Source of the DNA: Sweltsa coloradensis
Taxonomy: Eukaryota > Arthropoda > Insecta > Plecoptera > Chloroperlidae
Length of the DNA stretch: 64,000 nt
Reading direction: 5' to 3'
Assembly: GCA_024449915.1 (NCBI GenBank)
Contig: JAMZAV010001041.1
Coordinates: forward strand, 496,001 to 560,000
The stretch's first letter is position 1; each line of letters starts with the position of its first letter. Positions 3,241 through 55,145 of the stretch are shown in pieces. Below the pieces are notes generated by a model that had not been told where the DNA came from, ran no database searches, and saw only the letters and a program-made list of their open reading frames with translations. The translations under genes were made by a program, and so were the position numbers.

Positions 3241-3380
3241 GTATCTTTAAAGTATTCTTTAATATTGTGAACATAGTAGACATTGTGATTCAGTTGAATA
3301 TAAAATAACTTTGTATTTTCAATAACAGTGTACTACTGTAATTTAATTAATATTATAACATGTAATCTGGTGAATGCTAA

Positions 3381-3628
3381 CTCAGAGGGGAGGTGTTGTG
3401 TATTTGAATTGTGTTTAAATTACGAGCCCATCAAGAGCTGCTACCTGGCGGCCGTCTCTAGAACTACCAGGCATCACAGACGAGACGCAATGGCTGACTA
3501 GTAGAAACACACTCAAATTTACTGTACCAAGTAATTAATAAATAATACTGTCGGTAGAATCATATTCACGTGTTAGACTATTTTATTATTCAATATTATA
3601 AACCCACGCGCAATATACGACATACCTG
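3381..3628 (+). mobile_element. Probable polypurine tract and 3' LTR of gypsy element A
   Basis: A purine run AGAGGGGAGG at about 3383-3393 is followed at 3394 by TGTTGTGTATTTG, a typical LTR start. A polyadenylation-like AATAAATAATA lies near 3537. The 3' limit is uncertain: I place it near 3628, before CCTGGTGGCGAAAAC, which resembles the primer-binding-site region that follows a 5' LTR. If so, a second copy may have been joined here, or this may be a recombined junction. The partner LTR lies outside the window, so the ends cannot be proved. Confidence 0.5.
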
Positions 3629-6600: not shown

Positions 6601-7999
6601 ACAACTTTCGTTTGTGCTCACTAAAAACAAACATCGTCTTCTATTTAACGATTTTAGCCAATTATCAAGGAAGTATAAACAGCTGCGCAAATCAGCAGAA
6701 TCCAAGATGTCCGCCGCAAATTTGTTTATACAGCACTTTTTATTCTGCGTCCATGATTTAGCCCCCTCTCCCCGCTCATTACAATAGCCGAGTAAAACGT
6801 CTTATGTTAATTGGAAATTACTACTTGAGATTTATTTAAATACATATATTTGTTTTTGTCACCTAATTCACATATTAATAAATTGTCATTATGGTTAGCA
6901 AATGAGTGGTAAAGTAGACAATGCTCTGTCTTATTCAGGGACTAAGATTGGCGAACCACGATTGTATTTATACATCAACTACTCGGATATGTGCGCGATT
7001 AGCCGTTACTGTGCATCGACTAGTGGGTGCATGCACATAGTCCGTACTGGTTCAGTCGCTATATAGAGTTGTTGTGCCAGTGAGAATTGCATGCCGTGGC
7101 CATACGTAGACATGTCCGTTCTTTCACTAGAGACACGTCAACAAGCCATCACATCGCTCTTACAACCCCTGGGTAATATACCTTGAGTACAGGAACGAAC
7201 CCCTGACCTCAGACTTAAATCTTCTCGTACCATAAAGGGTCGATTTATTAATTCGATTCCACTGAACAATAACTTATTTGTTTTGTAGGCGAAAAGGCGT
7301 GGGAACGATACTATTTTAATTAGAAATGAAAACTAAAAACTCATTGTGGGCCATCAGTTTAGGTTTTGTTAGGTTAGGATGAAATGGCTGAGTGAAAACA
7401 TACACTATGCATACATGATTTCAATTGAACAACACTGTAAACACTTAAGAAAATTACGCTTCTGACATTGGTCCAATCAATATGAAACCAGAGAACGAGG
7501 GTTCGATCTCGCTTGTTGTATTTTCTACTCTTCACTCAACACAAGCTCCCATGTGACTCTTACGGTTCTGGAGCTCAGGCTCAAGGTTTATGGAATCGAC
7601 GCACGAGAGTTTGAATCCCTCAAAAGGCCTATACATTTTAGTAATTGTTCTCACATTCGCGTCTGTTGCCAGCATCACTGAGAGTGCCGAATAGCATAAA
7701 GAAAAAATAATAATACAGCTGCATAACAAACATTTCCACCCTTCAAAGGACTTAGGACGATGCGCTGAAGGCAAATTCCTGTCCGTTCGGCTGACGGCAT
7801 CACTTGTTTGAAATTTTGCACAGCTGCCACGAAGGGGAAACGAAAGTTTTTACAGTCGCTATTTTCTAAAAAAAAAAATCGACATGTCAAAACAATAAGT
7901 TGATTTTCTCGATTTTGGATTAATTGTGATCGATACTCGGTTTCTTAGTCGCCTGTGGTGTAGCTTATAGCTAGTGCAATGTCACCCCCCTCTTTCTCC
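3629..7999. other. Intergenic DNA without recognisable genes
   Basis: AT-rich sequence with a short (TA)n run near 4513-4529 and scattered short ATTT and AATA runs. The open stretches here (for example 4865-5104, 6135-6398, 6549-6761) are under 90 codons, have no recognisable motif and mostly overlap on both strands. A B-box-like GGGTTCGATCTCGC occurs at about 7499-7512 but has no foldable tRNA around it. Confidence 0.6.
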
Positions 8000-10929: not shown

Positions 10930-11859
10930 TTATTGTTTATATAATTTGAGATTCTCTATGTTATGGATACCTTTGTCATTCCCTTCTTCGGACATTATTT
11001 GGTATGCATTCATTCCCACCTGACTAAACACCCTATATGGTCCATTATACACTAGGAAGAACTTCTCTATTTCTTTGTTTGCAGCGTTGGACTGATGTTT
11101 TGCTTTTATCAACACTAACGAGCCCGGGGACAGAGTAATGGGCTGCACCCGTTTGTCATGGTTGTTTTTTCTTCTGGCCGCTTTCGACTGCATCCGAGAG
11201 TTGGCTAGTATAACCTTCTGTTGTGAACTCAATGGAGGTGTAAGTGGGGGCGGAATCTCCAGGAGGTCTGCTATTTTTCTAGTGGGACTCTTACCGAACT
11301 GTAACTCGAATGGCGTGAAGCCCGTGGTCTCATGCGTGGTCACATTGAACCACTCTTCCACTAAAGGTAGGCACTCAGCCCATGCTGTATGCTTGTCATG
11401 GCAAAAAGTGCGAAATACTCTGCCCAACTCCCGCATGACGCGTTCCGTTGGATTACTTTGGGGGTGGCGGATGGATGAATGTAATGGGATAATGTTTTCA
11501 CTCTCAAGAGTCCCATACCATTTACGCGCAGTAAACTGACTACCATGATCTGCAAGTAATTTACTTGGCCTACCCACGGTTGGTATGTAATCTGCAGTTA
11601 GTCTCTTTAGGACCGCGTCTGTAGTAGCTCTCTTCAACGCGTACAACTTGACATGTTTCGAGAACGCGTCGAGAAACACTAGGACAAAGTTGACGCCGCC
11701 CCTCCCTTGAGGTAGTGGCCCATACAAATCAATCGTGATTAATTGATTAGGGGCCGTTGCTATCACGTGTCCCATTTCCCCAGATAACCCTTTGTTGGAA
11801 TGTTTAGCCCGCTGGCAAATGTCACATGCGCGCGTCACTCGTACCACGCTACGTCGCAT
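10930..11859 (-). CDS. Integrase domain of gypsy element B
   Basis: The open stretch is 309 codons and forms the C-terminal part of pol, which inserts element cDNA into the host genome. It shows the CC half of the zinc module (C12, C15 in ACDICQRAKH) and a D,D,E core: D44 in ITIDLYGPLP, D104 in LLADHGSQFT and E139 in QSNPTERVMRELG. A GPY/F-type C-terminal module (VYNGPYRVF) follows near residue 270. The His pair of the zinc module must lie upstream, where the frame breaks (11943-12134). The start given is only the first Met after that break. The catalytic core looks undamaged. A 400-bp tail without coding precedes the polypurine tract. Confidence 0.92.
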   Translation of the reverse strand: MRRSVVRVTRACDICQRAKHSNKGLSGEMGHVIATAPNQLITIDLYGPLPQGRGGVNFVLVFLDAFSKHVKLYALKRATTDAVLKRLTADYIPTVGRPSKLLADHGSQFTARKWYGTLESENIIPLHSSIRHPQSNPTERVMRELGRVFRTFCHDKHTAWAECLPLVEEWFNVTTHETTGFTPFELQFGKSPTRKIADLLEIPPPLTPPLSSQQKVILANSRMQSKAARRKNNHDKRVQPITLSPGSLVLIKAKHQSNAANKEIEKFFLVYNGPYRVFSQVGMNAYQIMSEEGNDKGIHNIENLKLYKQ

Positions 11860-12079
11860 ATCGCGCCAATAAAAATGTTACTGACAGCAACTTATAAGTT
11901 TTGTAAGACCCCACATGTCCAAAACTTCATGAAAACCCTTTATTACGTCTGTCTGATCAACTGCGGGAACCATCGCGCGCCAATACGTATCATTCTTCCC
12001 TCGATGGTACAATACGTCCGGAATAACAAATACTTCCGGTCGCCGACCTTACCCACTGCCTCGAGCTGTTGTTGCCGAA

Positions 12080-12585
12080 TCACAGCTGACAACCCTTCAT
12101 CCTTGCGTTGTCGTTCAGGTAGCTGCTCGCCCACTCTTGCAACTTGTTTGACGCGCTTTCTACAAACTGTTTTATTGGGGCTAATCGTAAAACTGTCTCC
12201 TCATGTCCCTGCCTACCATCGGTCGGTGCTCTGCTGAGAGCGTCGGCCACCACATTGTCTTTACCAGGGCAAAATAACACCTCGAAATCGTACTCTTGCA
12301 GTACAAGAATCCACCTAGGCGATCCTAGCACTTGACAACTTACATTCTCTCTATGAAAGAAAGGCTGTGATGATCGGTCCAAATCGTGAACTTGCTACCC
12401 AACAGGTAGTTCCTGAACTTCTGTACAGCATATATAATCGCTAAACCCTCTTTCTCGGTGGTAAAATATCGTCGTTCTGGACCTTTCAGTGACCTGCTCG
12501 CAAATGCAATCACACGTCGCTCGCCCACCTCATCCACTTGAAACAAGTGCGCGCCAATACCGATGTCGGAGCTATCTGTCGACAC
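12080..12585 (-). pseudogene. RNase H domain of gypsy element B, frame-broken
   Basis: Two overlapping minus-strand stretches (12340-12585 and 12080-12382) together carry an RNase H domain. The first has STDSSDIGIGAHLFQ (first Asp region), EKEGLAIIYAVQKFR (Glu) and IWTDHHSLSF (second Asp). The second has FEVLFCPGKDNVVADALSRA, the standard domain ending. The frame changes near 12350. Role: removing RNA from hybrids during reverse transcription. Confidence 0.9.
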
Positions 12586-13577
12586 GTGATATGGAACACC
12601 CGGTAGTGGATGGTGTAAACATCACTGCTTGTAAAAATAGACTTTTCACGTGTATGAACGTGTCTTCCAATTCCTTTGTCCACACCCATTTTACCCCTTT
12701 CTGTAATAAAGTGAGCAACGGGCTGACAGTATGCGCGTATCGATCGCAAAACCGTTTAAAGTAGGTACACATACCTAAAAACCGCCTGAGTTGTTTGATA
12801 TTATATGGCCTGGGATAGTGAATGATTGGTTTTAGCTTGTCTTCATCCACCCTTACCCCTTTTGCCGAAATAATATGCCCGACGAATGTCACTTCGTGTC
12901 GTAAGAACTGGCACTTTTCCAATTTGACAGTCATGTTGACGTTTCCCAATGCATCCAGCACTCGATCTACATGGACCTCGTGCTCGTCATAGGTCCTAGA
13001 TGCCACGATGAAATCGTCTACGTAATCGTCACAAATAGTTTCATATCAGGCGTAATTATGTCATTCAAAACATCTTGTGAGCCTGCTACACTAGATTGGA
13101 GGCCATAGGGAACCACGCAAAACATATACGTTATCCCGCCGTGCACGAAAGCTGTGTATTTACGATCATCTTCTCTCAAGGACAACTGCCAGAACGAATA
13201 AGTCAAATCGAATGTAGTAAAGTAGTTCATACCGTGGAAACTTTTGTAGAATGTCTTCCATTGGTAAACGGAGAGTCATGTGGGGTTGCAAACGACTGTT
13301 TAGGTACCTGGCGTCTAGACAAACACGAACCCCTCCGTTCGGTTTTACAACTGTTACTAATGGGTTAGTGTACGCTGAGGGCGCTGCTTCTATTATGCCC
13401 CAAGCAATCATTTGTTCGATGTTGTGCATCTACTGCCGGTCGCTTTGATAGCGGAATCGGGTACGATTTTTGTGAAAATGGCGTCTTGTCTCGTATATCT
13501 AAGGCGTGAACGTAGTTAGTAACTCGACCAGGAATGTCGGAAAAAACCGCAGCATGTTTCTGCAGTAGCTCTGACAT
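12572..13577 (-). pseudogene. Reverse transcriptase of gypsy element B, frame-broken
   Basis: RT motifs run in order over four overlapping stretches in changing frames: the finger entry HAAVFSDIPG (13365-13577), VVKPNGGVRVCLDARYLN (13166-13429), FTTFDLTYSFWQL with the first catalytic Asp and VPYGLQ (13018-13230), and a YVDD catalytic box spanning the break near 13006-13025. The thumb follows in 12572-13006 (FLRHEVTFVGHIIS, LRRFLGMCTYFKRF). All catalytic signatures are present, but at least three frame changes separate them. Motif order and spacing are normal for Ty3/gypsy. Confidence 0.92.
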
Positions 13578-13985
13578 GCTTCGCTCTTGGGACGTGTGAT
13601 AGGTAGTGTTTCAAGCATTCTTTTTATTTTGGAGGAAAAGTCGTCTTGTGACTGGTCTACCTCTATCGTGTGGTCTTCAAGTTCAGTAATAGCGGGACTC
13701 TCGATAATCGCTGACACCGTCAAACCTGCCTCCGAACTTGCATTTGGATCACTAGCAAAACAAAAGTTATTCTGTGTCTCGGCTGTCCCTGTCCAACTGT
13801 CATGCATCTGTCATCAAAGTCAAGTTCTACTTTATTTTCACTGAGCCAATCTGCTCCTATAATCATGGAGCGATGTAGTAGGGCACTATCAAAACCGTTA
13901 TCTCATACTTTACATCGTTAATGAATGCAGGCAAATAAGTTTGTTTGTTTAACAATTTGACCTCTTTCATTAAATGCCCCTGCAA

Positions 13986-14324
13986 CTAGTACGCTACGTG
14001 CCGGTAACAGTGGCACGTTGGAGTGGTCTTGGATATGGTATTCCAAAATGTTTCCGAGATACAAGTAATGTCACTTCCAGTGTCAATTAAAGCTAACAAT
14101 TGTTGGTTGCAAACACTTACAGTTATTTCCGGCGTCTGTCCACCTACGATGCTGTTGCGTGCGTCGTCTTCATGTCGCAAGTCTTGTTGTGCTACATCAT
14201 CGACTAACCTGTAATCACCTGGGTCCTTGCAGATACTTGATAGAGGCCTACTTGCTGTGTGACACTGTCCTGTTGTCGACGAAACTCCTTGGTTCTTCAT
14301 TAACCGGAAACAGAGGAGTTGCAC
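13986..14324 (-). CDS. Aspartic protease region of gypsy element B
   Basis: The active-site signature ALIDTGSDITCIS has its Asp at residue 81 (14082-14084) of a 112-codon stretch. It lies between gag and RT, where the polyprotein-cleaving protease of gypsy elements belongs. The upstream part is polar linker. The downstream flap and second conserved block (toward 13500-13985) are in another frame. Confidence 0.82.
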   Translation of the reverse strand: MQLLCFRLMKNQGVSSTTGQCHTASRPLSSICKDPGDYRLVDDVAQQDLRHEDDARNSIVGGQTPEITVSVCNQQLLALIDTGSDITCISETFWNTISKTTPTCHCYRHVAY

Positions 14325-14441
14325 TGTCCAGTTAGTGGTAGTTTCCCTCGCTGTTGTTGTTGTTGTGCATCTCGAGATCCGGAGTTGTCTCTGCCACGTC
14401 GTGATCTCCGTCTTCTGATTGTCCTCGCTGCGTGACGCAAT

Positions 14442-15365
14442 TCACACGAGCTGCCCCGTCGCGATGACCCTGAGCGCGTCCACCTCTCTCTTCGCGCCAA
14501 TTCCCTGCAGCCAGTTGAGGACGAGGTCCACCTGCCGCAAAATATGGTCGCCTTGGAGTCGAACCTGGACCGTGTTGCCCGTGGATCCGGTCGGACGAGA
14601 AGCCTCGCGTTCTCGGCGTCGTGCGGCCGCCTCGTCCAGCCCCCTCAGTAAGGACAGCATAGCGTCGGGAGTGCGTATATTGGCCGATAGGATGGCTGTT
14701 TGCACATTCGCCGGGAAGAGATACGATATGCGTCGTATCAACGACGCATCAGACATGTTGTCGGAAACATGTCGAAGCCGGTTCCTCCATGACAGGTAAA
14801 ACCCTGCCATAGAGCCGTGTGTTTTTTTTTCGAAAAAATCCGTAGATAATTTTGCCGAAATCGCGTCTTGGGTGTCCTCGGACCAAAACATTTTTTTAAA
14901 GTCATTCGAAAACTCACCCCACGTTTTCCAAGACTGGTGGAACGAGTAGCCCCAGTCCTTAGCTGCGCCAACTAACTGGCGAAAAACCACACCCAACCAT
15001 AGATTGTCCGGTACACCGTAGTGCCGGAATGCCGACTCCATGTCCGCTAGGAAAATCCATGGGATGAATTTCCCCATCATCCGAAAACTTGGGGTACACG
15101 GGTACCATCCACGGTGCAGGCGAACCGGGTACCGCGGAAGAACCCGACGCCTCATCAAGAGCGAACCGGCGGCGGCGGCGGCGGTGTTGTCGTCGGAGGT
15201 GTATTCCGCACCTCCAACGAATCTAACCTCTGCACCACAACCCGATAACTGAGTCATCATCTCACGTATGAGATTAGCCATATTTCCATCACTATCTCCA
15301 CTTCCCGCACTCGGCAACACGGAAGACTCCTGGCTGTCCGAAGTGTGCGTACGCGTTCGCGGCAT
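14442..15365 (-). CDS. Gag-like protein of gypsy element B
   Basis: 307 codons starting at MPRTRTHTSDSQ. Other Met codons upstream are possible, but this one begins the polar N-terminus typical of gag. Residues about 100-250 resemble the retrotransposon gag core: AFRHYGVPDNLWLGVVFRQL, a W-rich stretch, then FYLSWRNRLRHVSDN. The protein would form the particle that packages element RNA. I see no CCHC zinc knuckle. Instead an arginine- and glutamine-rich stretch follows in another frame (14300-14500), which could serve for nucleic-acid binding. The gag-to-pol frame change here could be natural frameshifting, unlike the many later ones. Confidence 0.85.
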   Translation of the reverse strand: MPRTRTHTSDSQESSVLPSAGSGDSDGNMANLIREMMTQLSGCGAEVRFVGGAEYTSDDNTAAAAAGSLLMRRRVLPRYPVRLHRGWYPCTPSFRMMGKFIPWIFLADMESAFRHYGVPDNLWLGVVFRQLVGAAKDWGYSFHQSWKTWGEFSNDFKKMFWSEDTQDAISAKLSTDFFEKKTHGSMAGFYLSWRNRLRHVSDNMSDASLIRRISYLFPANVQTAILSANIRTPDAMLSLLRGLDEAAARRREREASRPTGSTGNTVQVRLQGDHILRQVDLVLNWLQGIGAKREVDALRVIATGQLV

Positions 15366-15478
15366 AGTCACAATAACACAGAACACTGAAATTTCACTGA
15401 TCAGAAAATATTTCACACGGATGTAAACATGTACAACGAAATGTCACGGGAGCCGTAGCGAACACCGAAGCGGTTCTT

Positions 15479-17784: not shown

Positions 17785-17934
17785 GTTATTATTTACTACA
17801 ATTCAGAAATTATAAAAGTCCGCCCCAACCGGGAATCGAACCACGGATCTCCCACATTCCAGGTAAGCGTCTTAACCACTAGACCATTGGTTGGGGCGGA
17901 CTTTTTTAATTTCTGAATTGTAGTAAATAATAAC
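17785..17934. mobile_element. Foldback element with a tRNA-like loop
   Basis: The 46-bp arms (17785-17830 and 17889-17934) pair with one mismatch. On the minus strand the inner arm plus loop read as a tRNA-like module: an A-box-like TGGTCTAGTGGTTAAGACGC and a B-box GGTTCGATTCC inside an acceptor-like pair CCCCAACC/GGTTGGGG. An anticodon-type stem-loop CTTAC-CTGGAAT-GTGGG can be drawn, but the T stem is mismatched and the acceptor stem continues into the long arms, so this is not a normal tRNA gene. Related heads occur near 19700 and 51490. Confidence 0.75.
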
Positions 17935-24649: not shown

Positions 24650-26575
24650 ATGGCCATCTGTCCAGAAACATTGTAATATTTAAAAATAACTTTATGCAAC
24701 AACACAGGTACGGTAGAACCATAAATAGAGAACGAAGCCTACACGTTATTACCCCTACAAGGCTTGTTCGACTGTGGATGTGATTTTGGTGGAGGTGCCG
24801 GGTCCGAAGTTAAATTTTCTTTGGTTGAGGCTAGCCCCGCCCACTGACCCCCAGGACCCCAGGACAACCAACATAATTATGTATCATTCTTGTTAAGAAG
24901 TGTTATGTCAACCAATTTAGTTGTATGTTTTGATAATAATACAAATAAATTCTTTTAATTTTATCACGTGATGACGATGAGGTTCAATCTGTTTAGAAAC
25001 ATTGAGCTAGTTTAAAATCATATCTTTTTTTTAACAACACGGGTACGGGAGAAAATAATAGGGAGCGAAGCGTACTCGTTATTACACCTACAACGCTAGT
25101 TCGACTGTGGATGTGACTGTGGAGGTGCCGGGTCCAAAGTTAGATTTTCTTTGGTTGAGGCTAGCCCCGCCCACTGACCCCCAGGACCCCAGGACAACCA
25201 ACATAATTATGTATCATTCTTGTGAGGAAGTGTTATGTCAACCAATTTAGTTGTATGTTTTGATAATAATACAAATAATAAATTCTTTTAATTTTATCAC
25301 GTGATGACGATGAGGTTCAATCTGTATAGAAACATTGAGCTAGTTTAAAATTATATCTTTATTTAACAACACGGGTACGGGAGAAAATAATAGGGAGCGA
25401 AGCGTACTCGTTATTACACCTACAACGCTAGTTCGACTGTGGATGTGACTGTGGAGGTGCCGGGTCCAAAGTTAGATTTTCTTTGGTTGAGGCTTGCCCC
25501 TCCCTCTGACCCCCAGGACCCCAGGATAACCAACATAATTAAATATCATTCTCGTTTAGAAGTGTTATGTCAACCAATTTAGTTGTATGTTTTGATAATA
25601 ATGCAAATAATAAATTCTTTTCATTTTATCACGTGATGACGATGAGGTTCAATCTGTCTAGAAACATTGAGCTAGTTTAAAATTATATCTTTATTTAACA
25701 ACACGGGTACGGGAGAAACAAAATAGGGAGCGAAGCGTACTCGTTATTACACGTACAACGCTAGTTCGACTGTGGATGTGATTTTGGTGGAGGTGCCGGG
25801 TCCAAAGTTAGATTTTCTTTGGTTGAGGCTAGCCCCGCCCACTGACCCCCAGGACCCCAGGACAACCAACATAATTATGTATCATTCTTGTTAAGAAGTG
25901 TTATGTCAAACAATTTAGTTGTATGTTTTGATAATAATACAAATAATAAATTCTTTTTATTTTATCACGTGATGACCATGACGTCCAATCTGTCTAGAAA
26001 CATTGAACTAGTTTAAAATTATATCTTTATTTAACAACACGGCTACGGGAGAAAAAAAAATAGGGAGCGAAGCGTACTCGTTATTACACGTACAACGCTA
26101 CTGTTCGACTGTGGATGTGATTTTGGTGGAGGTGCCGGGTCCAAAGTTAGATTTTCATTGGTTGAGGCTTGCCCCGCCCTCTGACCCCCAGGACCCCAGG
26201 ATAACCAACATAATTATGTATCATTCTCGTTAAGAAGTGTAATGTCAACCAATTTAGTTGTGTTTTGATAATAATACAAATAATAAATTCTTTTAATTTT
26301 ATCACGTGATGACCATGAGGTTCAATCTGTTTAGAAACATTGAGCTAGTTTAAAATCATATCTTTTTTTTAACAACACGGGTACGGGAGAAAATAATAGG
26401 GAGCGAAGCGTACTCGTTATTACACCTACAACGCTAGTTCGACTGTGGATGTGACTGTGGAGGTGCCGGGTCCAAAGTTAGATTTTCTTTGGTTGAGGCT
26501 AGCCCCGCCCTCTGACCCCCAGGACTCCAGGATAACCAACATAATTATGTATCATTCTCGTTGAAGTGTAATGCG
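24650..26575. repeat. Satellite array, about 335-bp unit, six copies
   Basis: Units begin with AACAACACGGGTACGGGAG at about 24698, 25033, 25365, 25697, 26033 and 26371 (spacings 335, 332, 332, 336, 338). Each holds GTGGAGGTGCCGGGTCC, a C-rich ACCCCCAGGACCCCAGGA and a TATCACGTGATGA motif containing CACGTG. The first unit is the most diverged and the last is cut short at about 26575. Unit differences are mostly small indels and substitutions. No open reading frame runs through it. Confidence 0.93.
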
Positions 26576-27621
26576 AACCAGAAACGCATTTCAACCGGAG
26601 GGCTTGTAGGTTTTATCGTGAGACGAACGTCTAGTGATGCACACAGGAGCATCGCACTATAATATTACACAACTTATTAACTAATACGAAACTTTCGTTA
26701 GGTCTACATTTGAATAGGAATAATGTATGACTGTAGCAAGTACCCTCGCATAGTTGTGAAGGTCGGGGGATCCAAGGCCAATTACTTAGGGAAAGTTGCT
26801 AGGAGAGTTCTAGGCATCTCATCTACAACTTCTAAGTCCATATAAAATATTTGCAGTTGAAAGGGATTCATTAAAATTCATAAACTTATAATCTGTGTGG
26901 GCCGGGTGCCTACGTCTTCTTCATCCTCTCGATGTAGTATCGCCTAGAGTTCTCAAACTCCGCCAAGTGTTTGCCATATCGTTCAATGCACTGATCTTCA
27001 ATCTTGTTTGCAACTCGACTTTAGCAGACTTTTCCACTCATTTCGCTACAAACTCCTATAACAATTATATTTTTCTGACTTTAATTTGAATATTTAAGCC
27101 TTTTTTCACTGCAGTTTTTTTGTTGAATTTTATTTGAACGGCACAAGAAACTTTTTAACAAGTAAGTTTCTTACAGTGGAGATTTCATATTGAACACTTA
27201 AGTTGAACTTTTTGTTCGGTTCTCGTCGAAATTATTCGTTTCAGTTTATTATTTAGTTACTAGTTCAATGTTAGACAGACAAGCAGAAATTTCAAATAAT
27301 AACAAATACTTATGAGGGCGTGTCCCAGAACTGAGATTATTGTTTGTAAGTGGGTCATTTCCCAATAATACACTTTATTATAAGCAGGTTTTTTAAACTT
27401 TGTACAATTCGTAAAGCATCGTTTCATGTGTCTTGTGTATCTAGTCGTGCTCGTTACCCTTTGCATTTCTGTCGCAACTTACTTGATTTATCATTTAATA
27501 GACTAGTGGAATAACGCATGTACTTGAATAACTGATCGCAATTCTGGTTTATCTAGATAGATAATTTCAACCTGCTGTGAACAATATCTGTGACTAGAAC
27601 AGCACAAGCGAGCTAGGTATC
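26576..27621. other. Intergenic, nothing recognised
   Basis: Non-coding AT-rich sequence following the satellite. Open stretches under 70 codons have no known motif. Confidence 0.45.
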
Positions 27622-34860: not shown

Positions 34861-35118
34861 GCACTGGTGGATGCAGAAGTCACCTCAAGGTTCCTGTGTC
34901 CACGGCACTGGTGGACGCAGAAGTCACCTCAAGGTTCCTGTGTCCACGGCACTGGTGGACGCAGAAGTCACCTCAAGGTTCCTGTGTCCACGGCACTGGT
35001 GGACGCAGAAGTCACCTCAAGGTTCCTGTGTCCACGGCACTGGTGGACGCAGAAGTCACCTCAAGGTTCCTGTGTCCACGGCACTGGTGGACGCAGAAGT
35101 CACCTCAAGGTTCCTGTG
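34861..35118. repeat. 44-bp minisatellite, about 5.9 copies
   Basis: The unit begins GCACTGGTGGACGCAGAAGT and recurs at 34861, 34905, 34949, 34993, 35037 and 35081. Only the first unit differs (ATG for ACG), and the last ends after CCTGTG. Because 44 is not a multiple of three and all three plus-strand frames are open, the long open stretches here are a by-product of the repeat, not evidence of a gene. Confidence 0.93.
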
Positions 35119-39690: not shown

Positions 39691-39934
39691 TTGATAATCC
39701 TTTTCGAAACCTGCGTGGAAGTGATTTGGGGTCGGGGAAATTTTTCAATTATTGATCATGTACCTTGTTGAGTATTTTGAAGTCGTCTCGTTTACAGAAT
39801 GTTGTGTTCCTATATTTGGAAAGGATGTTGATGTTTATTAGGTTTAAGGGCGCTTCAACCGTTGGTCATATTGTGCCTCCTGTGATAATCTAGTTGTTTA
39901 TTAGTTAGTTTGTAACTATATATTTTCCAAAGGG

Positions 39935-40460
39935 GAGGAACGTAAGGGCTGACGTGGGGAGACGCGAGGTGGACAGGCTTGTGCTGGTCAGAACCAGCCA
40001 CAAGCAAAGGGTGGGCATGGGAGTAGATGGCCGGGGGCAAGGGGCCGGGGCGGGAGCTTGGCCGGGGTCGGTCTGTGGCATGTGACGAAATCAGGCCGGG
40101 CTCTGGCAAAGGACAGAGGGAAAGGAAGGGTATGGGGAGGGCAGGGGTTGGTGGTTCCCCCACCTCATGGTCGTCTTCGTCTTTGTCTTTGTCACCGTCC
40201 GTGTTGTCATTTTCGTCGTCGTCGGGGAGGTTGTCAAAGGGAAGGGGAATGTTCCCCGACGACGACCGCCAGAGCTCGCCTCTAGATTCGGGGGAGTAAT
40301 ATACTACCTCTCTTGCTAGAGCTCCCTTCTAGCTTCGAGGAGTAATATACTTCCCTCTTACTAGCTGCTGTTTGCGAGGTGGACTTTTCTCTTGAATCGC
40401 CATGTACGATTAGCAGAGCCATGCTGTGGGCCAATTCTACCCCGGGCCCACCTTGACTTC
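39935..40460 (-). repeat. SINE-B copy, GC-rich, longer form
   Basis: Shares with 49085-49375 the phrases GTGCTGGTCAGAACCAGCCA, CGGGGAGG(T/A)(T/A)GTCAAAGGGAAGG and GTTCCCCGAC. On the minus strand it begins near GGGCCCGGGGTAGAATTGG, a tRNA-related SINE head as I know it from invertebrates. It carries extra G-rich sequence (40020-40130) that is absent from the other copy. Open stretches on both strands here are compositional. Confidence 0.65.
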
Positions 40461-42185: not shown

Positions 42186-42264
42186 TGCGCTGTACCAAGG
42201 TCTACTAGATCTACGCGAGTCGACCTCCGCTAGGCGGAGATCTAGTAGACCTTGCGCTGTACCA
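42186..42264. mobile_element. 55-bp hairpin insert flanked by 12-bp direct repeats
   Basis: The direct repeat TGCGCTGTACCA lies at 42186-42197 and 42253-42264. Between them a 55-bp segment has perfect 15-bp inverted ends, AGGTCTACTAGATCT and AGATCTAGTAGACCT. This looks like a tiny foldback insertion with its target duplication. Its inner GCTAGGCGGA also occurs at the right outer edge of the large element (50451-50460, minus strand). Confidence 0.75.
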
Positions 42265-42291
42265 TGCACCATCATCATCGCCAATAGTCAA

Positions 42292-43464
42292 GCGGATAAG
42301 AGGGCAATACAAGAACAATTAGGGGTTTTGTGGTAGAGGTCTGAATTTTGGACTGTATACTCAGAACAATATTCTAAGAAAATTGCCTCGAGGTGCCATG
42401 ACAAAATTCGTCGGTTAAGGGGTGGAAGCGGTTGAAATAATGGCATTTTTAAAAAATTCGCAAAATTCAAATATCAAACTAAATTTAATCCTAATATTAC
42501 AAAATTAATACATATTGTAGATAAAAGTCCAAAATTTAATAAAAAAAATACATATTACCATATATGTATATCTAAGCAGATTTTACACCCTTTGACTTTT
42601 ATTAACAAATTTTCGCACTGTGCTGGGAGGATTGGCCTACCAGACGTGGGTTTTGTGATAGGGCCGTGAATTTTCCCTAAAATACTCAGAAGAATGTTCT
42701 CTAAAAAATGGCTCGAGGTGCCCTCAAAAAAGTTGCTTGCTTATAGGAGAAAGAGGGGGTGTACTAAAAGGGGTTGATAAAACTAAAATAAATAAATCTG
42801 TATTCAAATATAATATTTAGAATGCCAAATTAACATTTATTGTAGATAAAGATCTAAAATTTAGTTAAAAAAATTAAAATTCCAACATATATGTAAATCT
42901 GATCAGATTATGCACCCTTTGGCCACTTTTCATAAATTTACTCAATATTAACGAAAGTGTATCGTGTGACCACTTGTTTTGTCCCAAATTATTCCAATAT
43001 TACGAATTAGGACGAAAAGAACATTTTGTCATGCCTTGGGTACATTTTCATACAATGGACTTTGACCCATTTTCACACATTTACTCAAGATTAACGAAAG
43101 TGTATAGTGTGACCACTCGTTTTGTCCCAAATTATGCCAACAATACGAATTAGGACGAAAATAAGTTTTTAACACCTTGGGTGGTACATTTTCGCGCAAT
43201 GGACTTTGAACCATTTTCTAACAATAAGCGTCAAATAGCCTATTTAGAGTAACCTAACAATTTGGTTGTTTTGTAGTCGAGTGTCAACACACATATTGGA
43301 TCAAAATAGTACATTCATGATGTGTGAATCATGTACAGTGTGAATACTGGCCACTTTGTTAACGTTATAATAATATAGCCACGTTGATGGATGAGTCTGT
43401 TTTGGTCAATCGATCCTCCCGTTTATATGGTCTTCATACTGTTTTATTGTTATAAGTATGTTTT
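42292..43464 (+). repeat. Left terminal inverted repeat of the large element
   Basis: Matches the reverse complement of 49436-50455 almost throughout. It is longer than the right one mainly because a unit of about 145 bp (TTTACTCAA.ATTAACGAAAGTGTAT to CAATGGACTTTGA.CC) is present twice in tandem here (about 42920-43070 and 43075-43215) but once on the right. Open stretches inside on either strand are not genes. Confidence 0.9.
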
Positions 43465-43668
43465 GAATAAAAGATCAGTGAATTAATAATTAGTTTTATA
43501 AACTTGTCAAAATATCTTCTTTAAAAGCACAGTTATTGATGTTGTACAAATAGGTACAGTATATTTATTTTATTAGTGCACGGGTAGCCGTAGATTTGTT
43601 CCATAACACTTTCCGAATTTAATTTTTATTTAGATTTTTATTGAGTTATTTACACAAGGACTATTCAC

Positions 43669-43773
43669 AATAGCCCGGGAACGAGGCCCTGCAATGGTAA
43701 CGGGAATATTGGTTATTATTTAACATTGCCTGGTAACTGTGTTACGATAACGGGAAACTATTGCCGGGCTATT
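43669..43773. repeat. Small inverted repeat inside the large element
   Basis: AATAGCCCGG at 43669-43678 is matched by CCGGGCTATT at 43764-43773, with the related phrases GGTAACGGGAATA and GATAACGGGAAAC between. A hairpin of about 105 bp is possible. It lies between the left inverted repeat and the gene. Confidence 0.6.
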
Positions 43774-44096
43774 ATAGAGAAGCCCTAAATTTGACAAATT
43801 ATTTACGAGTATGTTGCCTTGTGCGCGTTGTACGATTTAATAAAATAAAACTTCAATGTTGTAAACATTTGTATTTGAAAATGTGATTGTAGCCTATTTA
43901 AATTTCACTTTTAAATTTTTCACCAACCGCCCAAATCTTGTCAAATCTGCGCTTCCACGGCCTTCCTGAACTCTAGTATCGACGCAAATTTTGTGAAAAA
44001 ATAACTAAAACCTATGGAAGGCAGTGGTTTTATCGTACATTTGTGTTTTGTTTCTTTGTAAGACAACAATTTGCGTTGTATAGGTTGAGTGGCTTA

Positions 44097-44297
44097 TTTC
44101 ACTATAGCAACTGGAGTGATTCATTCACGGCGCATGTTGTATAGTTTGTGGGGCCAATTTCACTATAGCAACTGGAGTGATTCATTCACGGCGCATGTTG
44201 TATAGTTTGTGGGGCCAATTTCACTATAGCAACTGGAGTGATTCATTCACGGCGCATGTTGTATAGTTTGTGGGGCCAATTTCACTATAGCAACTGG
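44097..44297 (+). repeat. 61-bp tandem repeat upstream of the transposon gene
   Basis: Three full units plus a partial one of TTTCACTATAGCAACTGG, AGTGATTCATTCACGG and CGCATGTTGTATAGTTTGTG. The units appear identical. A decayed partial unit precedes (44070-44096). It ends about 100 bp before the start codon at 44398, so it may sit in the promoter or 5' UTR. ATTCATTCACGGC could be a bound site, but that is only inferred from position. Confidence 0.88.
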
Positions 44298-44397
44298 CAC
44301 AACTTAGTAAATGATCTGATTCATTTCCAATCACTTGTCCGCATGTGGCGGTTATATCCAGCAGGGGCCTTAACCCTATAACAGACTCTATGACACT

Positions 44398-47300
44398 ATG
44401 ACGTACGTTCCGGGAATCATTGATTGGGATACGTGCGTTTTCTGCCAGTCACACACGAATGAGTCATTACAGTGTCCGATTAACAATACGATTTCAACAA
44501 GGGCCGAGTATGGATACAAAAAATTGGCTGATGTTATTGATAGTTTTCATGATCTATGTACTGAGGAATTCCCTATTACGTTAAATGTGAAAACATTGGA
44601 CGATGGAAGTGGAACTGAAAACACTCTCAGTAAAAATGTAGCTAAGTGGCATAAATCATGTCGTTTGAAGCTTTATAAGAAAACTTTAAAACGATCTCAG
44701 GATCGTATCGCAGAGAGTCCGCTTGATGAGACTACCCAGGAAGGTCCGTCAGATACCAAAAGACTATTAACGCAGCCAGAAGTGAAATCAGAATGCTGTA
44801 TATCTCAATGCTTCTTTTTATGTGGATCCTCGGACGATTCGGATATTCTGCACAAGGCTTCAACATTAGAAATTGATCAGAAGGTTCGTTCATGCGCAAT
44901 CGATCTGAATGATCAACGGATACTTGCTGCATTGAGCCAAGGAGACATGGTTAGTTTAAATGCAACGTATCATTTAAAGTGTCTTGCTCAGTTTTACCAT
45001 CGCCGGAGAGCCATTCAAAGAGATTTGAAAGACGAAGAGCGGCTTATAAAAGTGCACGAAAGCTTTGCATTAGCAAAGCTTCTGGGTGACATACAAGAAA
45101 TGCGTGCATGTAGTACTTCATCTCCAATACTTAAACTTTGTGAAATTGGTAAAATGTACGCAGGGAATCTAAACCAATTTGGTCATGAATCAAAATTAAG
45201 AAATACCGATCTTAAGAACAAAATACTTGCTCACTTTCCGTCAATGGGCGCCTTTAAGTCAGGAAGGGATGTTTTTCTGGCATTCAAGGACGACGTAGGT
45301 GAAGTTCTATCACAAGCTTACGGGATTGACTACGATCAAGAAGCATTATGCATAACAAAAGCAGCTTCTTACATTCGCAGAGATATACTCGACAAGAAAA
45401 TTGAATTTACTGGTAAATTTGATAAAGGGGCCCAAACTATTTCAGTTCCAGATTCATTGAACTTTCTTCTCTCATTCATACACAAAGGGTTATTAAATCA
45501 ACACAAACCTTCAGAAGCTGATTCGAATGAACCAATTCCGAAGTCAGTTAGCTCTATTGGACAACTTATTGTGTATAATTGCAATGTAGGGAAGAGACAT
45601 CAGAAGACGCGAGAACCTCCTCTACCTGTATACATTGGATTGTCAATTCACTCCCTAACACGGAAGAGAGGAATAATTGATGAATTGTTTCACCTTGGAC
45701 TATCGATATCATATGACCGGGTACTGGACATATCAACAAGACTTGGTATAAGCATATGCAATAGGTTCAATGAAGATCAAGCTGTATGCCCCCCTAATCT
45801 GTTAAAAGGTGTTTTTGTTACGGGGTCTGCAGATAACGCTGACCACAATCCATCTTCAACGACATGTAAGGAATCGTTTCATGGTACCGTCATTCAGATG
45901 AATTCTCACCCAACGGTACACAACATAGGCAACACAAGACCTGCTATCAACTTGTATATGGGTGAAGTTAAATCAAAAGCTTTACCTAAACTACCAGAGT
46001 TCTACACAGAAATCACACCAATGATGAAACTAAAAGATAACGTATCAGCCCCTCCTATACACTTTGTTATTCCTGAAAGAGACAGCACCCGTTTACTCCA
46101 GAGTGAAAATGAGTGGATGAACCATGTGAAAGTGGTGGTTGAGGAAGAAATTCCCATTACCAATTCAAACACGAATGTGTCCTGGTCAGCATTTAATGCC
46201 AGTAAAATACAGAGTTCTAATGATGTTCAAACAATAAGTGGAATGCTTCCATTGTTTGAAGAGCCGGCTCATAGCGTTTCAATGATACGCCATGCAATGG
46301 ACATAGTAAAAAATGCTACAAACGTACTTAACCCAGGACAAACTGCAGTCATTACTCTCGACCAACCACTCTTTGCAATAGCCAAGAAAATTCAATGGAA
46401 CAATCCCAACGACTACTCTGAGCCCAGTTACGTTATTATGTTTGGAGGACTTCACATAGAGATGGCGATCTTAAAGATACTTGGTTGTTGGCTAGAAGGA
46501 AGTGGGTGGGTCGAGACTTTAACACGGGCGAATGTCGCACATCAAGGTACAGCGCAGTCTTTCATTAAAGTGTCACATGTAAAGAAAACAAGAAGAGCTC
46601 ACCAGGTAACAGCTGCTGCGTTAAACATATTACAGCATCGGGCATTCCTTGAAGCAGACGCTTTGGAAGAAAATGCTAGTTTTGAATCCTGGTGTTCTAA
46701 GCAGGAAGAACAAGAACCACAGTTTCAGTATTGGTCCTTAGTTCTACGTCTTCAGGTTATACTCCTCGGATTTATTCGCTCCATACGCAACGGCGATTTT
46801 TGTCTGTATAAGCAAATGCTCAATGCAATTATCCCTTGGTGTTTTGCAATGAATCGAACCAACTACTCTAGGTGGTTGACTGTTCATCTTAGGGATATGC
46901 TTGCCCTCGAAAATACCTGCCCGGACGTTTATGAGGAATTTGCAAAGGGTAATTTCGTTGTGAGAAAATTTAATAATCGTTTCTCAGCAATGGCTATAGA
47001 CCAAGCTCTTGAACAAACCAATGCCATAATTAAAGGAGACGGAGGTGCTATTGGGATTCTTCAAAATCCAGAAGCGATTCAAAGGTGGATGATTGTAGGA
47101 CCTGAGGTAGCACGCATAGTTTCAGAGTTTACAGACAATTGTACAGATGATGATCGTCATCACGAACAAACTGGAAGCTTCCAACGTAATTTTCTATCAG
47201 ACGTTATTCAAATGGTAACAGTTTTCGAAAAAGAAGGAAATCCCTTCAAAGAGTCTAGTGGGGACCTTATCCGTATCCATAATAAAGAAATAATGTCAGA

Positions 47301-47709
47301 AGAAACTGTAAAAATGGTGAAAAATATTGAAAACCTTGGGATAGAAAACATGAACGCATTTGTAAACTCTCGTCTACATTCTCAAACTCAACTCGTATCC
47401 CATGTTATAACAAAGAATAAATTACATCTGTTTAGCACCGCCCCTACCAAAAAGAAAACGAACCAAAGTCTTAAAATAACATTTCTCTTAGGACTGACTG
47501 CGCTTTATTTTCCCGCTTTTACATCGGGTGTCAAACCCGCAACGGTGATCTCAATAAATTCTTCCAACATGAAAATAATCCATGTCCTCCATCAATTTCT
47601 CAAGATGGACAACTCAGGTTTGGAAAGAAGTCCGATATACTTGCGTGTCTCGAAGATCCTAAAGAAAACTGTAGCTCTGTCTTACACCATGTTGGTGCAG
47701 TTCTTTTAA
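44398..47709 (+). CDS. Transposon protein, N-terminal and central part (putative RNase H-like transposase)
   Basis: 1103 codons open from MTYVPG; an in-frame ATG after the 61-bp repeats makes this start plausible. Residues 13-88 (C13, C16, H85, C88) and 133-195 (C138, C142, H192, C195 in YHLKC) look like two zinc-binding modules. Residues 250-900 form a long conserved domain. VTGSADNADHNPSSTT holds D479 and D482, VITLDQPLFAIAKKIQW holds D655, FGGLHIEMAILKILG spans 682-696, and AIDQALEQTNAIIKGDGG holds E872. Spacing and context resemble a D,D,E RNase H-like transposase, but that fold is inferred, not shown. From about residue 1028 the frame is wrong: the conserved reading continues in the third frame near 47485, so the last roughly 75 residues here are spurious. 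Confidence 0.88.
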   Translation: MTYVPGIIDWDTCVFCQSHTNESLQCPINNTISTRAEYGYKKLADVIDSFHDLCTEEFPITLNVKTLDDGSGTENTLSKNVAKWHKSCRLKLYKKTLKRSQDRIAESPLDETTQEGPSDTKRLLTQPEVKSECCISQCFFLCGSSDDSDILHKASTLEIDQKVRSCAIDLNDQRILAALSQGDMVSLNATYHLKCLAQFYHRRRAIQRDLKDEERLIKVHESFALAKLLGDIQEMRACSTSSPILKLCEIGKMYAGNLNQFGHESKLRNTDLKNKILAHFPSMGAFKSGRDVFLAFKDDVGEVLSQAYGIDYDQEALCITKAASYIRRDILDKKIEFTGKFDKGAQTISVPDSLNFLLSFIHKGLLNQHKPSEADSNEPIPKSVSSIGQLIVYNCNVGKRHQKTREPPLPVYIGLSIHSLTRKRGIIDELFHLGLSISYDRVLDISTRLGISICNRFNEDQAVCPPNLLKGVFVTGSADNADHNPSSTTCKESFHGTVIQMNSHPTVHNIGNTRPAINLYMGEVKSKALPKLPEFYTEITPMMKLKDNVSAPPIHFVIPERDSTRLLQSENEWMNHVKVVVEEEIPITNSNTNVSWSAFNASKIQSSNDVQTISGMLPLFEEPAHSVSMIRHAMDIVKNATNVLNPGQTAVITLDQPLFAIAKKIQWNNPNDYSEPSYVIMFGGLHIEMAILKILGCWLEGSGWVETLTRANVAHQGTAQSFIKVSHVKKTRRAHQVTAAALNILQHRAFLEADALEENASFESWCSKQEEQEPQFQYWSLVLRLQVILLGFIRSIRNGDFCLYKQMLNAIIPWCFAMNRTNYSRWLTVHLRDMLALENTCPDVYEEFAKGNFVVRKFNNRFSAMAIDQALEQTNAIIKGDGGAIGILQNPEAIQRWMIVGPEVARIVSEFTDNCTDDDRHHEQTGSFQRNFLSDVIQMVTVFEKEGNPFKESSGDLIRIHNKEIMSEETVKMVKNIENLGIENMNAFVNSRLHSQTQLVSHVITKNKLHLFSTAPTKKKTNQSLKITFLLGLTALYFPAFTSGVKPATVISINSSNMKIIHVLHQFLKMDNSGLERSPIYLRVSKILKKTVALSYTMLVQFF

Positions 47710-47894
47710 ATGGTGCAGCAGTTATTAACATGCTTAAACCCTATTTGCACTTGAAAACGTTTGAAGACTATGCAACGCAAGTGTTCACACCATATGTGTT
47801 GTCACAGTTTAAGATAACTAGTGAAGTTCACGTTATCTGGGATGTCTATCGTGATGATTCACTAAAAGCATATACCAGAGATAAAAGAATTTAG
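47485..47894 (+). pseudogene. Transposon protein, middle part with start of FEN1/XPG-like domain (frame +3)
   Basis: After the first frameshift the conserved reading continues as TDCALFSRFYIGCQTRNGD to a TAG at 47892. It carries LLNGAAVINML, which corresponds to the first FEN1 motif (AIDASM, catalytic Asp34). Here the acidic position is Asn (codon AAT at 47709). HVIWDVYRDDSLKAYTRDKR follows and aligns with the FEN1 region around Asp86 (FDG.PP.LK..E...R), with its Asp kept (47841-47843). The frame then shifts again near 47885-47894 and the reading resumes in frame two. No splice signals explain the two shifts well. Confidence 0.78.
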
Positions 47895-48910
47895 GAATCA
47901 GGCGACGCGTTGATGCTTCAAACACTTTACCTAAAAACTGGCACGAGTTCCTGCGAACAAATGAAAATAAAGCAGAGCTATTCAATTTGTTAAATACTTT
48001 TCTTCTCAATGTCAACAGGTCAATTGGTATAGTAATTGTTACAAACGGAGAAGAATCAATGTGCAATGACACAAATGTGTGCTTGAAAGCCATTAAACCA
48101 TGTAACCACGAGGAAGCAGACACAAGACTCGTTTTACATTTGTGTAATGTACTCCATGAAAATAATGAAGTTCTTGTGCGGACAGTTGACTCTGATGTTG
48201 TTGTACTTTGTATTGCCGCAGCCAACAAGCTTACAGAAAAGAAGGTGTGGGTACAGTTTGGAGTGGGGAATTATGTAAGAATAATACCAGCACATACGAT
48301 TTCCCAAACACTTGGACCAGAAAAGTCTGCTGCTCTTCCATTCTTTCATGCCTTCACGGGCTGTGACACCTGCTCCTCGTTTTCAGGTAAAGGGAAAAAA
48401 TCAGCTTGGAAGACATGGGCTGTATTTCCAGAAGTAACAGCGATTTTCAAAATGCTTTCCGGGCCTATAGATACAGTGGATGAATATGCTCTAGCAACAT
48501 TGGAGAAATACATCGTTCTTCTATATGATCGAACTAGTGATTGTGCAACCGTAAACGAATGCCGTAAGGAGTTGTTCACGCAAAAGGGAAGGCCAATGGA
48601 GAGCTTGCCTCCAACTCAAGATGCGCTGCGTCTACATATTCGACGTGCTGTCTACCAGGCTGGATTCATCTGGGGATCATCAGCAATCTCTTTCCCAATA
48701 ATTCCAAATCCTTCTGCCTGGGGTTGGCTTAAGGACGCATCTGGTGTATGGAAACCACATTGGACTACACTTCCAGACGCAATGCAGTCATGTAATGAAG
48801 TTATTGTATGTAAATGTAAGAATGATTGCAATGAAGATCAATGCACGTGCCATACCAGTGGGCAACCATGCTGTGCTTCATGCAAATGCAGAGGAAGATG
48901 CAATGAATAA
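47894..48910 (+). CDS. Transposon protein, C-terminal FEN1/XPG-like nuclease and CXC domain
   Basis: The conserved reading begins at GIRRRVDASN (47894); the Met at 47987 is internal. Numbered from that Met: EEADTR (E42, E43, D45) matches the Glu pair motif of FEN1/XPG nucleases, RTVDSDVVVL (D68, D70) matches the Asp pair, and FTGCDT (D127) matches the last metal-binding Asp. SGKGKKSAWK (133-142) stands where FEN1 has its helix-turn-helix GIGPKRA. These enzymes cut branched or flap DNA using two metal ions. Residues about 268-307 are Cys-rich (CKCKNDC, CTCH, CCASCKC), a tesmin/TSO1-like CXC zinc domain that probably binds DNA. The stop is at 48908. Confidence 0.86.
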   Translation, partial: GIRRRVDASNTLPKNWHEFLRTNENKAELFNLLNTFLLNVNRSIGIVIVTNGEESMCNDTNVCLKAIKPCNHEEADTRLVLHLCNVLHENNEVLVRTVDSDVVVLCIAAANKLTEKKVWVQFGVGNYVRIIPAHTISQTLGPEKSAALPFFHAFTGCDTCSSFSGKGKKSAWKTWAVFPEVTAIFKMLSGPIDTVDEYALATLEKYIVLLYDRTSDCATVNECRKELFTQKGRPMESLPPTQDALRLHIRRAVYQAGFIWGSSAISFPIIPNPSAWGWLKDASGVWKPHWTTLPDAMQSCNEVIVCKCKNDCNEDQCTCHTSGQPCCASCKCRGRCNE

Positions 48911-49061
48911 TTTGTACATCTTTGTATTAATAACTTGGTTCAGGGTGTGAGGACAATTGAAACTGTTTACAAACCATTTAATTATATTCCTCTACTCACG
49001 CCAACGTTAACGAGAAGAACCCTGCCTTCTTTGTCGTCTTATATTAATTAATTGGATATTG

Positions 49062-49375
49062 CTTAACGTCTCATATTTATGCAACTGGGCTAATCGAGAC
49101 GAAGGGATGGACGTAAGGGATGACGCGGGGGGACAAGGGGTGGACAGGCCTGTGCTGGTCAGAACCAGCCACAAGCGTATGGGGAGGGCAGATGTTCCCC
49201 CACGTCGTGGTCGTCTCCGTCTGTGTCATCATCCGTTCGTGTTGTCATTGTCGTCGCCGTCGGGGAGGTAGTCAAAGGGAAGGGGAAAGTTCCCCGACAA
49301 CAACCCAGGTGGTCTTTTATGATCAGCAGAGGAATACACTGGGCCACATTGTACCCCGGGCGCAGGCGGGGTAAA
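49062..49375 (-). repeat. SINE-B copy inside the large element
   Basis: Read on the minus strand, a head near CGCCCGGGGTACAATG leads through the GC-rich body (shared with 39935-40460) to a tail CGAGACG...ATGAGACGTTAAGCAA at 49107-49062. The tail matches the SINE ending at 55147-55200. It sits between the gene's stop codon and the right inverted repeat and is probably a later insertion. Confidence 0.7.
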
Positions 49376-49435
49376 TTTGTTAGAGTTGTTGGTTGATATT
49401 GAAATTTATTAATTTTTGTTGCTAAATCTTACGAA

Positions 49436-50455
49436 ACATATACTTATAACAATAAAACAGTATGAAGACCATATAAACGGGAGGATCGATTGACCAAAAC
49501 AGACTCATCCATCAACGTGGCTATATTATTATAACGTTAACAAAGTGGCCAGTATTCACACTGTACATGATTCACACATCATGAATGTACTATTTTGATC
49601 CAATATGTGTGTTGACACTCGACTACAAAACAACCAAATTGTTAGGTTACTCTAAATAGGCTATTTGACGCTTATTGTTAGAAAATGGTTCAAAGTCCAT
49701 TGCGCGAAAATGTACCACCCAAGGTGTTAAAAACTTATTTTCGTCCTAATTCGTATTGTTGGCATAATTTGGGACAAAACGAGTGGTCACACTATACACT
49801 TTCGTTAATATTGAGTAAATTTATGAAAAGTGGCCAAAGGGTGCATAATCTGATCAGATTTACATATATGTTGGAATTTTAATTTTTTTAACTAAATTTT
49901 AGATCTTTATCTACAATAAATGTTAATTTGGCATTCTAAATATTATATTTGAATACAGATTTATTTATTTTAGTTTTATCAACCCCTTTTAGTACACCCC
50001 CTCTTTCTCCTATAAGCAAGCAACTTTTTTGAGGGCACCTCGAGCCATTTTTTAGAGAACATTCTTCTGAGTATTTTAGGGAAAATTCACGGCCCTATCA
50101 CAAAACCCACGTCTGGTAGGCCAATCCTCCCAGCACAGTGCGAAAATTTGTTAATAAAAGTCAAAGGGTGTAAAATCTGCTTAGATATACATATATGGTA
50201 ATATGTATTTTTTTTATTAAATTTTGGACTTTTATCTACAATATGTATTAATTTTGTAATATTAGGATTAAATTTAGTTTGATATTTGAATTTTTGAATT
50301 TTAAAAAAATGCCATTATTTCAACCCCTTCCACCCCCTTAACCGGACGAATTTTGTCATGGCACCTCGAGGCAATTTTCTTAGAATATTGTTCTGAGTAT
50401 ACAGTCCAAAATTCAGACCTCTACCACAAAACCCCTAATTGTTAGCCTTATCCGC
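49436..50455 (-). repeat. Right terminal inverted repeat of the large element
   Basis: Reverse-complement partner of 42292-43464, with one instead of two copies of the roughly 145-bp unit and otherwise only small differences. It ends CAATTGTTAGCCTTATCCGC-like, matching the left edge after a small indel of the left end (extra GGGCAATACAAG on the left). Confidence 0.9.
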
Positions 50456-51099
50456 CTAGCTACAATGAACAATAATTATACAAATAAATAATTCTCCCGT
50501 GGAAAATCTTACTTTCGCACTCTCGCTTTCATTGTGTTAATGTTATAATTTATTCCATCTCATTTCTAGTGGTTTGTGCGGTGCTGTATTAATTAGGATT
50601 ACACATTGCAAATAGTAAAATATGCATGGAGCTTGCTCGCGGGTTTACCGCGGACTTACACCAACCTAATGTAACGTTGTACTTTGCGATGGTTTCGGCA
50701 GACAATACCAACCTACACGGTCAGGTTTTCTATGTAGCCGCAGAAGCCAACTGAGGAGGTATGTGCATACTGGGTTCGAGTCCTGGTCAGATCTTACTTT
50801 GTGATTGCTGTCATATTATAAAACGCGATATAATTGGGTCTATTGTATACTAAGGCTTCGCGAAACCATTTATATAGGTGCGTTGAAGTTAAAAAGGTTT
50901 CCTGAATTTTTATCCTAACAAAAGAGGAGAATAAGGGCAATTTTTTGTTTCGAAGGTTTCCTGAAATTTTATCGATTGATGTTTACATTTGCTCGATAGA
51001 CAGTGAACAAATAAAAAAAAGTAGGAACAGACAGACGCCAATGGTTTACATATTTGTAATTTTATAGATTTAGATAATTAAGTGAATCAAGAGGTCTAG
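50456..51099. other. Intergenic with a B-box-like site
   Basis: GGGTTCGAGTCCTGG at about 50773-50787 resembles a Pol III B box. No complete tRNA folds around it, so it may be another SINE head remnant. Nothing else recognised. Confidence 0.4.
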
Positions 51100-54112: not shown

Positions 54113-55145
54113 GACTCTATAAACATACACACATCGAACCACTTAATTTCGCTTGCAATATCGATAAGCGTGGGTTGTTTATGCACTCCATTGCTTTCTT
54201 CCACTTTATTATTAAACTGATCAGTGAACCTGTGCAAAGCCGAAACTAAAAGCAAATTCTAAGCATAAAACCATCATCGGCCTACGACCTCGAGATATGA
54301 GTAGCAACAAGTGTCGCCACCACGAAAAAATTAAGGGTCCGAATTTATATTTTTGTTATCCTTATTTAATTCTTCCAAGCGTATGGCTCTAAAACGACGT
54401 TGGTTCGAGTCCCGCATAAGGCATGTTTTTTTTGATCGTCACTTCTTTATTCATTATACACATACACACATCGAACCACTTAATTTCGCTTGCAATATCG
54501 ATAAGCGTGGGTTGTTTATGCACTCATTGCTTTCTTCCACTTTATTATTAAACTGATCAGTGAACCTGTGCAAAGCCGAAACTAAAAGCAAATTCTAAGC
54601 CTAAAACCATCATCGGCCTCCATACCACCTCGAGATGTGAGTAGCAACAAGTGTCGCCACCACGAACAAATTAAGGGTCCGAATTTATATTATTGTTATT
54701 CTTATTTAATTCTTCCAAGCGTATGGCTCTAAAACGACGTTGATTCGAGTCCCGCATAAGGCATGTTTTTTTTGTAATCGTCCTTTTACTTCATATATCA
54801 CCACACATACACACATCGAACCACTTAATTTCGCTTGCAATATCGATAAGCGTGGGTTGTTTATGCACTCCATTGCTTTCTTCCACTTTATTATTAAACT
54901 GATCAGTGAACCTGTGCAAAGCCGAAACTAAAAGCAAATTCTAGGCATAAAACCATCATCGGCCTACGACCTCGAGATATGAGTAGCAACAAGTGTCGCC
55001 ACCACGAAAAAACTAAGGGTCCGAATTTATATTTTTGTTATCCTTATTTAATTCTTCCAAGCGTATGGCTCTAAAACGACGTTGGTTCGAGTCCCGCATA
55101 AGGCATGTTTTTTTTGTAATCGTCCTTTTACTTCATATATCACCA
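54113..55145 (+). repeat. Three-copy tandem array, about 340-bp unit, containing a SINE-like B box
   Basis: ACACATCGAACCACTTAATT begins the units at 54129, 54466 and 54811 (spacings 337 and 345). Each unit includes CGCTTGCAATATCGATAAGC, GTGTCGCCACCACGAA and, at the end, GACGTTGGTTCGAGTCCCGC followed by AAGGCATG and a T run. The first copy lacks little; small indels separate them. GGTTCGAGTCC is a good Pol III B box in the second half of each unit. Confidence 0.9.

Follow-up and report, generated by a model that had tools for sequence, protein, structure and literature searches.

What kind of element joins a transposase to a flap-type nuclease and a cysteine-rich tail, and has it been mobile? 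One locus raises this question in a 64,000-nucleotide stretch of the plecopteran Sweltsa coloradensis (assembly GCA_024449915.1, contig JAMZAV010001041.1, positions 496,001 to 560,000), which we call the window. The element there is very probably an Academ-type DNA transposon of the AcademX (nuclease) lineage, with young repeats and a broken gene. An initial annotation had recognized the element but placed its ends at 42292 and 50455. Other copies show that the true ends lie 7 bp further out on either side, at 42285 and 50462, giving 8.2 kb with TAG...CTA termini.

42282–42284, no strand: left target-site duplication CAA, equal to 50463–50465
42285–43464, plus strand: left terminal inverted repeat, starting TAGTCAAGCGGATAAG, with a 143-bp unit in two copies (arm alignment and comparison of copies)
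42323–42600 and 42648–42930: end-module copies of the left arm, about 69% identical
44075–44297, plus strand: 61-bp tandem repeat, 3.7 copies, directly upstream of the coding region
49435–50462, minus strand: right terminal inverted repeat, minus-strand end TAGCTAGGCGGATAAG (arm alignment and comparison of copies)
50463–50465, no strand: right target-site duplication CAA (comparison of copies)

The inverted repeats of about 1 kb that had been described from the letters alone are indeed nearly identical: when the arms are aligned with gaps from 42314 towards the interior, 1002 of 1154 columns are identities; 1006 columns are paired, and 143 of the 148 gap columns correspond to one tandem unit, present twice in the left arm and once in the right. 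The resulting 99.6% identity over paired columns points to a recently inserted copy, unless the arms underwent gene conversion. Both arms hold two diverged (≈69%) copies of one end module. Comparison with other copies ruled out AACAATTAGGGG as the terminus and AATT as the duplication, the true start being TAG; it also put an end to the idea of a palindromic target, because a short internal segment distinguishes the left end from the right. Some 30 bp outside the left end, 42196–42254 forms a hairpin whose 21-nt arms are 95% complementary. Another segment, 49029–49308 in the 3′ part of the element, recurs at 39933–40005 and 40126–40267 and outside elements in three other loci (L012, L015 and L024); it is an interspersed repeat, perhaps one inserted into the window element.

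The family has moved in the past, as the computation shows. Searching the 1.45-Gb assembly (16,871 contigs) with the inverted repeat gave at least 63 matching stretches, among them fragments belonging to one and the same copy; the best 40 of 1663 candidates were scored. Ends were compared at 21 loci, namely the window copy and 20 retrieved copies, among which L015 contributed one end only from an excerpt that was too short. An exact 3-bp duplication surrounds the TAG...CTA ends in 17 of the 20 two-ended copies, window copy included, and these 17 sit in different flanking sequences. The exceptions are L020 and L027, where two of the three bases agree, and L026, whose right end is altered; a single terminal base is changed in L022, L024 and L029. 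All 17 exact duplications have A or T at their centre, where the window as a whole is 62% A+T, and 16 of the 17 carry C or A two positions before that centre. A weak target preference is possible.

The 19 other two-ended copies are 2.2–5.9 kb long, and a search within their own ends found no match to bases 1301–7049 of the window element reaching 100 nt. They look non-autonomous and, having the same ends, were probably mobilized in trans. Two further observations concern fragments. At 5511–6843 of locus L028, a fragment of a more distant member of the protein family adjoins a non-autonomous copy. The last 300 bp or so of the coding region (48609–48910, CXC tail included) occur as separate short pieces of 83–87% identity at 19 or more genomic places, possibly as deletion derivatives that retained the 3′ end.

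What does the element encode? One long gene had been proposed; the window copy has three overlapping open reading frames (ORFs) in three different frames, and it is the relatives that have single proteins.

44374–47709, plus strand: ORF1 (annotated from 44398), carrying the N-terminal Cys/His modules and the transposase; past about 47490 its frame departs from that of relatives
44425–44997, plus strand: N-terminal region, bearing a pair of CxxC...HxxC modules, of which the second is CxxxC in the window copy (alignment)
45715–47142, plus strand: RNase H-like transposase core, residues 440–915, with D479 (45832), D482 (45841), D655 (46360) and E872 (47011)
47475–47894, plus strand: ORF2, opening part of the FEN-like nuclease; terminates at TAG
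47885–48910, plus strand: ORF3, remainder of the FEN-like nuclease and CXC tail
48110–48121, 48188–48196, 48359–48370 and 48386–48400, plus strand: nuclease motifs EEAD, DSD, GCDT and GKGKK, in ORF3
48800–48907, plus strand: Cys-rich tail of Tesmin/TSO1-like CXC type (sequence; annotation of relatives)

Matches of five long relatives (tblastn) pass through ORF1, ORF2 and ORF3 in order. Single-protein predictions of 1480–1566 amino acids exist for 8 of 30 relatives, and the DNA of one more member, L001, is open across 1445 amino acids. The coding region has at least 47 matching stretches in the same genome (best 40 of 71 candidates scored). Translation covered eight of the ten coding loci returned, the other two being the window copy and the partial L037, and none of the eight is an intact full-length copy: L032, the best full-length one (98%), has more breaks than the window copy, and L034 (79%) and L040 (66%) are also broken. 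The partial L033, 95% identical, reads through the two break points in an open frame of 867 amino acids and has every one of the seven nuclease acids. Given the single-protein predictions for relatives and the uninterrupted frame of L033, we read the two breaks, together with the Asp-to-Asn change described below, as private to the window copy; an assembly error is conceivable. Programmed frameshifting at both breaks was set aside on the same two observations.

The central domain is predicted to be an RNase H fold with a conserved D-D-E triad. The model DUF6589 matched the window transposase at 22.4 bits, under its 27-bit cut-off, and we found nothing useful in the literature on it. In passages of one published account, the hAT/P/MuDR/Kolobok/Dada group is given a C/DxxH motif between the second D and the last E (PMC9587614). 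Here the invariant His (H686, 112 of 112) is preceded by GGL rather than C/D in the consensus sequence.

For the nuclease, an AlphaFold2 model was built for the relative P0037 (502 amino acids, alignment of 59); the window's own nuclease pieces enter by alignment. The model's mean predicted local distance difference test score (pLDDT) was 84.4 and its predicted template modelling score (pTM) 0.80. Foldseek placed XRN2 first (E = 2.8e-5), with Rad2, XPG and FEN1 lower, and VIA-align over residues 90–442 gave 15.2 for Exo1, 13.7 for FEN1, 12.6 for XPG and about 12 for XRN. The domain thus modelled is predicted to have a FEN/XPG fold, the PIN/FEN fold covering the whole nuclease core of P0037. 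By motif order, the equivalents of FEN1 D34 and D86 are conserved in 193 of 195 and 195 of 197 relatives, those of E158, E160, D179 and D181 in 191 of 191 each, and that of D233 in 185 of 186. All seven metal-binding acids are therefore present in the family and six in the window copy, which has Asn (47709–47711) in place of the Asp34 equivalent.

The reading made from the letters alone holds for most of these parts: the Cys/His pairs of the N-terminal zinc-type clusters are present by alignment (and may bind zinc), the D/D/E-bearing core is conserved among relatives and has its predicted RNase H fold where one had been suspected (residues 450–900), the nuclease motifs stand in the order described, the PIN/FEN fold appears in the model of P0037, and the Cys-rich tail is there. 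Of the FEN1 acids that it names, the window copy has the equivalents of all except Asp34.

The pairing of the two enzymes is a property of the family. At least 231 relatives were gathered with transposase or nuclease queries; 50 of them have 1400 amino acids or more, and transposase and nuclease occur together in 49 of the 50, always in that order, according to domain models built partly from the same proteins. The exception, P0026, named Nephrocystin-4 and with several unrelated Pfam domains, is apparently a chimeric gene prediction. The tail model matches 36 of the 50. PF03638 is annotated in 6 of 81 relatives, and others have source names with "Tesmin/TSO1-like CXC"; it matched neither the 59 relatives of alignment A2 nor the window pieces. 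A tree of the 45 transposase cores long enough to enter it (one long-branch row, P0231, was flagged) splits deeply into two: the window copy is in one group, many echinoderm names are in the other, and long two-domain proteins occur in both. Named hosts include sponges (Amphimedon, Sycon), corals, molluscs, arthropods, echinoderms, a hemichordate, a tunicate, hagfish and a fish. L001 lies on a contig labelled as a Planctomycetota metagenome-assembled genome; this full-length member is 82% identical, over the searched region, to a protein of the sea cucumber Apostichopus, and animal DNA misplaced in a bacterial bin is the likeliest explanation. A search of viral contigs gave nothing useful.

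What would the nuclease do? Flap or branch processing by the fused domain is plausible from the predicted fold. We hypothesize that the DDE domain would cleave at the TAG...CTA ends, on the 3′ strands that are transferred, and join these to the target with a 3-bp stagger, while the FEN-like domain would cut or trim the other (5′) strand, or 5′ flaps arising meanwhile; the Cys/His and CXC modules would bind ends, DNA or chromatin, and shorter copies with the same ends would be served in trans. A stricter form, in which transposition cannot proceed without the FEN-like domain as its second active site and the DDE domain cuts the transferred 3′ strand only, leaving the other strand or 5′ flap to FEN, is a tentative proposal that may well prove wrong. 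In Tn7, TnsA and TnsB share strand cutting; a similar division of labour would here reside in one eukaryotic polypeptide and involve a flap nuclease. Alternatively, the element could be as we describe it and the nuclease act in donor-site repair or against host responses rather than in transposition. The resemblance of the fold to Exo1 and XRN enzymes is in line with such a role, which we nevertheless consider unlikely, since the two domains are fused and conserved jointly, which speaks for a direct one.

As for the class of the element, the X of AcademX stands for XPG, and the AcademX nuclease is of the XPG type. We file the element there because of its nuclease and its 3-bp duplication. Passages of a published account give AcademX a transposase and a nuclease with 3- or 4-bp duplications, and place AcademH in the same superfamily, with a helicase and 9- or 10-bp duplications, a difference that seems tied to the encoded helicase or nuclease (PMC10045372). 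The window element shares with AcademX a DDD/E transposase and terminal inverted repeats; it has a CXC tail and two N-terminal Cys/His modules. Unlike AcademH, it has 3-bp duplications, and Pfam searches with the window pieces and with six of the long relatives matched no helicase family. P elements are not known to have a FEN domain and have 8-bp duplications, unlike the 3 bp of this family, and comparison with their transposase gave 8% identity. FEN1, Exo1 and XPG share with the family the fold, the seven acids and a GxGxK motif that follows the final Asp; the family differs in its fusion to a transposase and in having no profile-detectable sequence similarity to them.

Several results weigh against this assignment. 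The window copy is unable to make the whole protein from one frame. Foldseek by itself placed no transposase high for the transposase model: an unrelated protein came first (E = 0.19), and RAG1 reached 0.51. Of the 50 long relatives, 14 escape the tail model, and 22 fit a stricter Cys pattern. For the nuclease, hhalign of the 59 relatives with human FEN1 gave a probability of 0.4%, on an unrelated region, profile searches of PDB by sequence produced nothing credible, and the XPG families of Pfam were unmatched in the 59 relatives; kinship with FEN1 is out of reach of sequence methods alone. Lastly, AcademX was assigned by architecture and duplication, the comparison being with descriptions rather than Academ sequences. 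The element could accordingly belong to an undescribed superfamily convergent with AcademX in nuclease and 3-bp duplications, and among the papers searched none names Academ together with XPG, nor does any bring together three of the four features PIN domain-like, FEN1-like, transposase and CXC domain. We consider this quite improbable: that combination of nuclease and duplication is already published for AcademX, 100 curated Academ elements are reported for bivalves in the cited part of another source (PMC10294476), and escape from Repbase would be unlikely because named members span sponges to hagfish and fish. The three-part protein proposed by the initial annotation is retained, and its novelty as a transposon type is not, AcademX having been described before. 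A captured or domesticated host FEN/XPG-type gene with incidental inverted repeats would explain the very well conserved nuclease acids but is barely credible, and a single-copy host gene is ruled out, given the same ends and 3-bp duplications in 17 different flanks, several distinct proteins per genome (for example, three each in Apostichopus and Sycon) and both catalytic domains in 49 of 50 long proteins.

Elsewhere in the window, open frames at 10930–15443 (minus strand) and 1291–2094 (plus strand) resemble, by eye, pieces of Gypsy-type retrotransposons (integrase, reverse transcriptase/RNase H, gag-like). Tandem arrays occupy 24656–26580 (332-bp unit, 5.8 copies), 34861–35118 (44-bp unit, 5.9 copies) and 54123–55145 (342-bp unit, 3.0 copies), and a tRNA-like match at 17825–17890 (minus strand) is the sole Rfam family above gathering score.

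Taken as an AcademX-type element, this transposon belongs to a well-delimited family, with exact ends, 3-bp duplications, many copies, full-length relatives and both active sites conserved, which is a setting in which to test the role of a flap-type nuclease inside a transposase. A further implication is that transposon proteins can stand behind animal protein names that say no more than "Tesmin/TSO1-like CXC domain-containing" (at least seven such labels).
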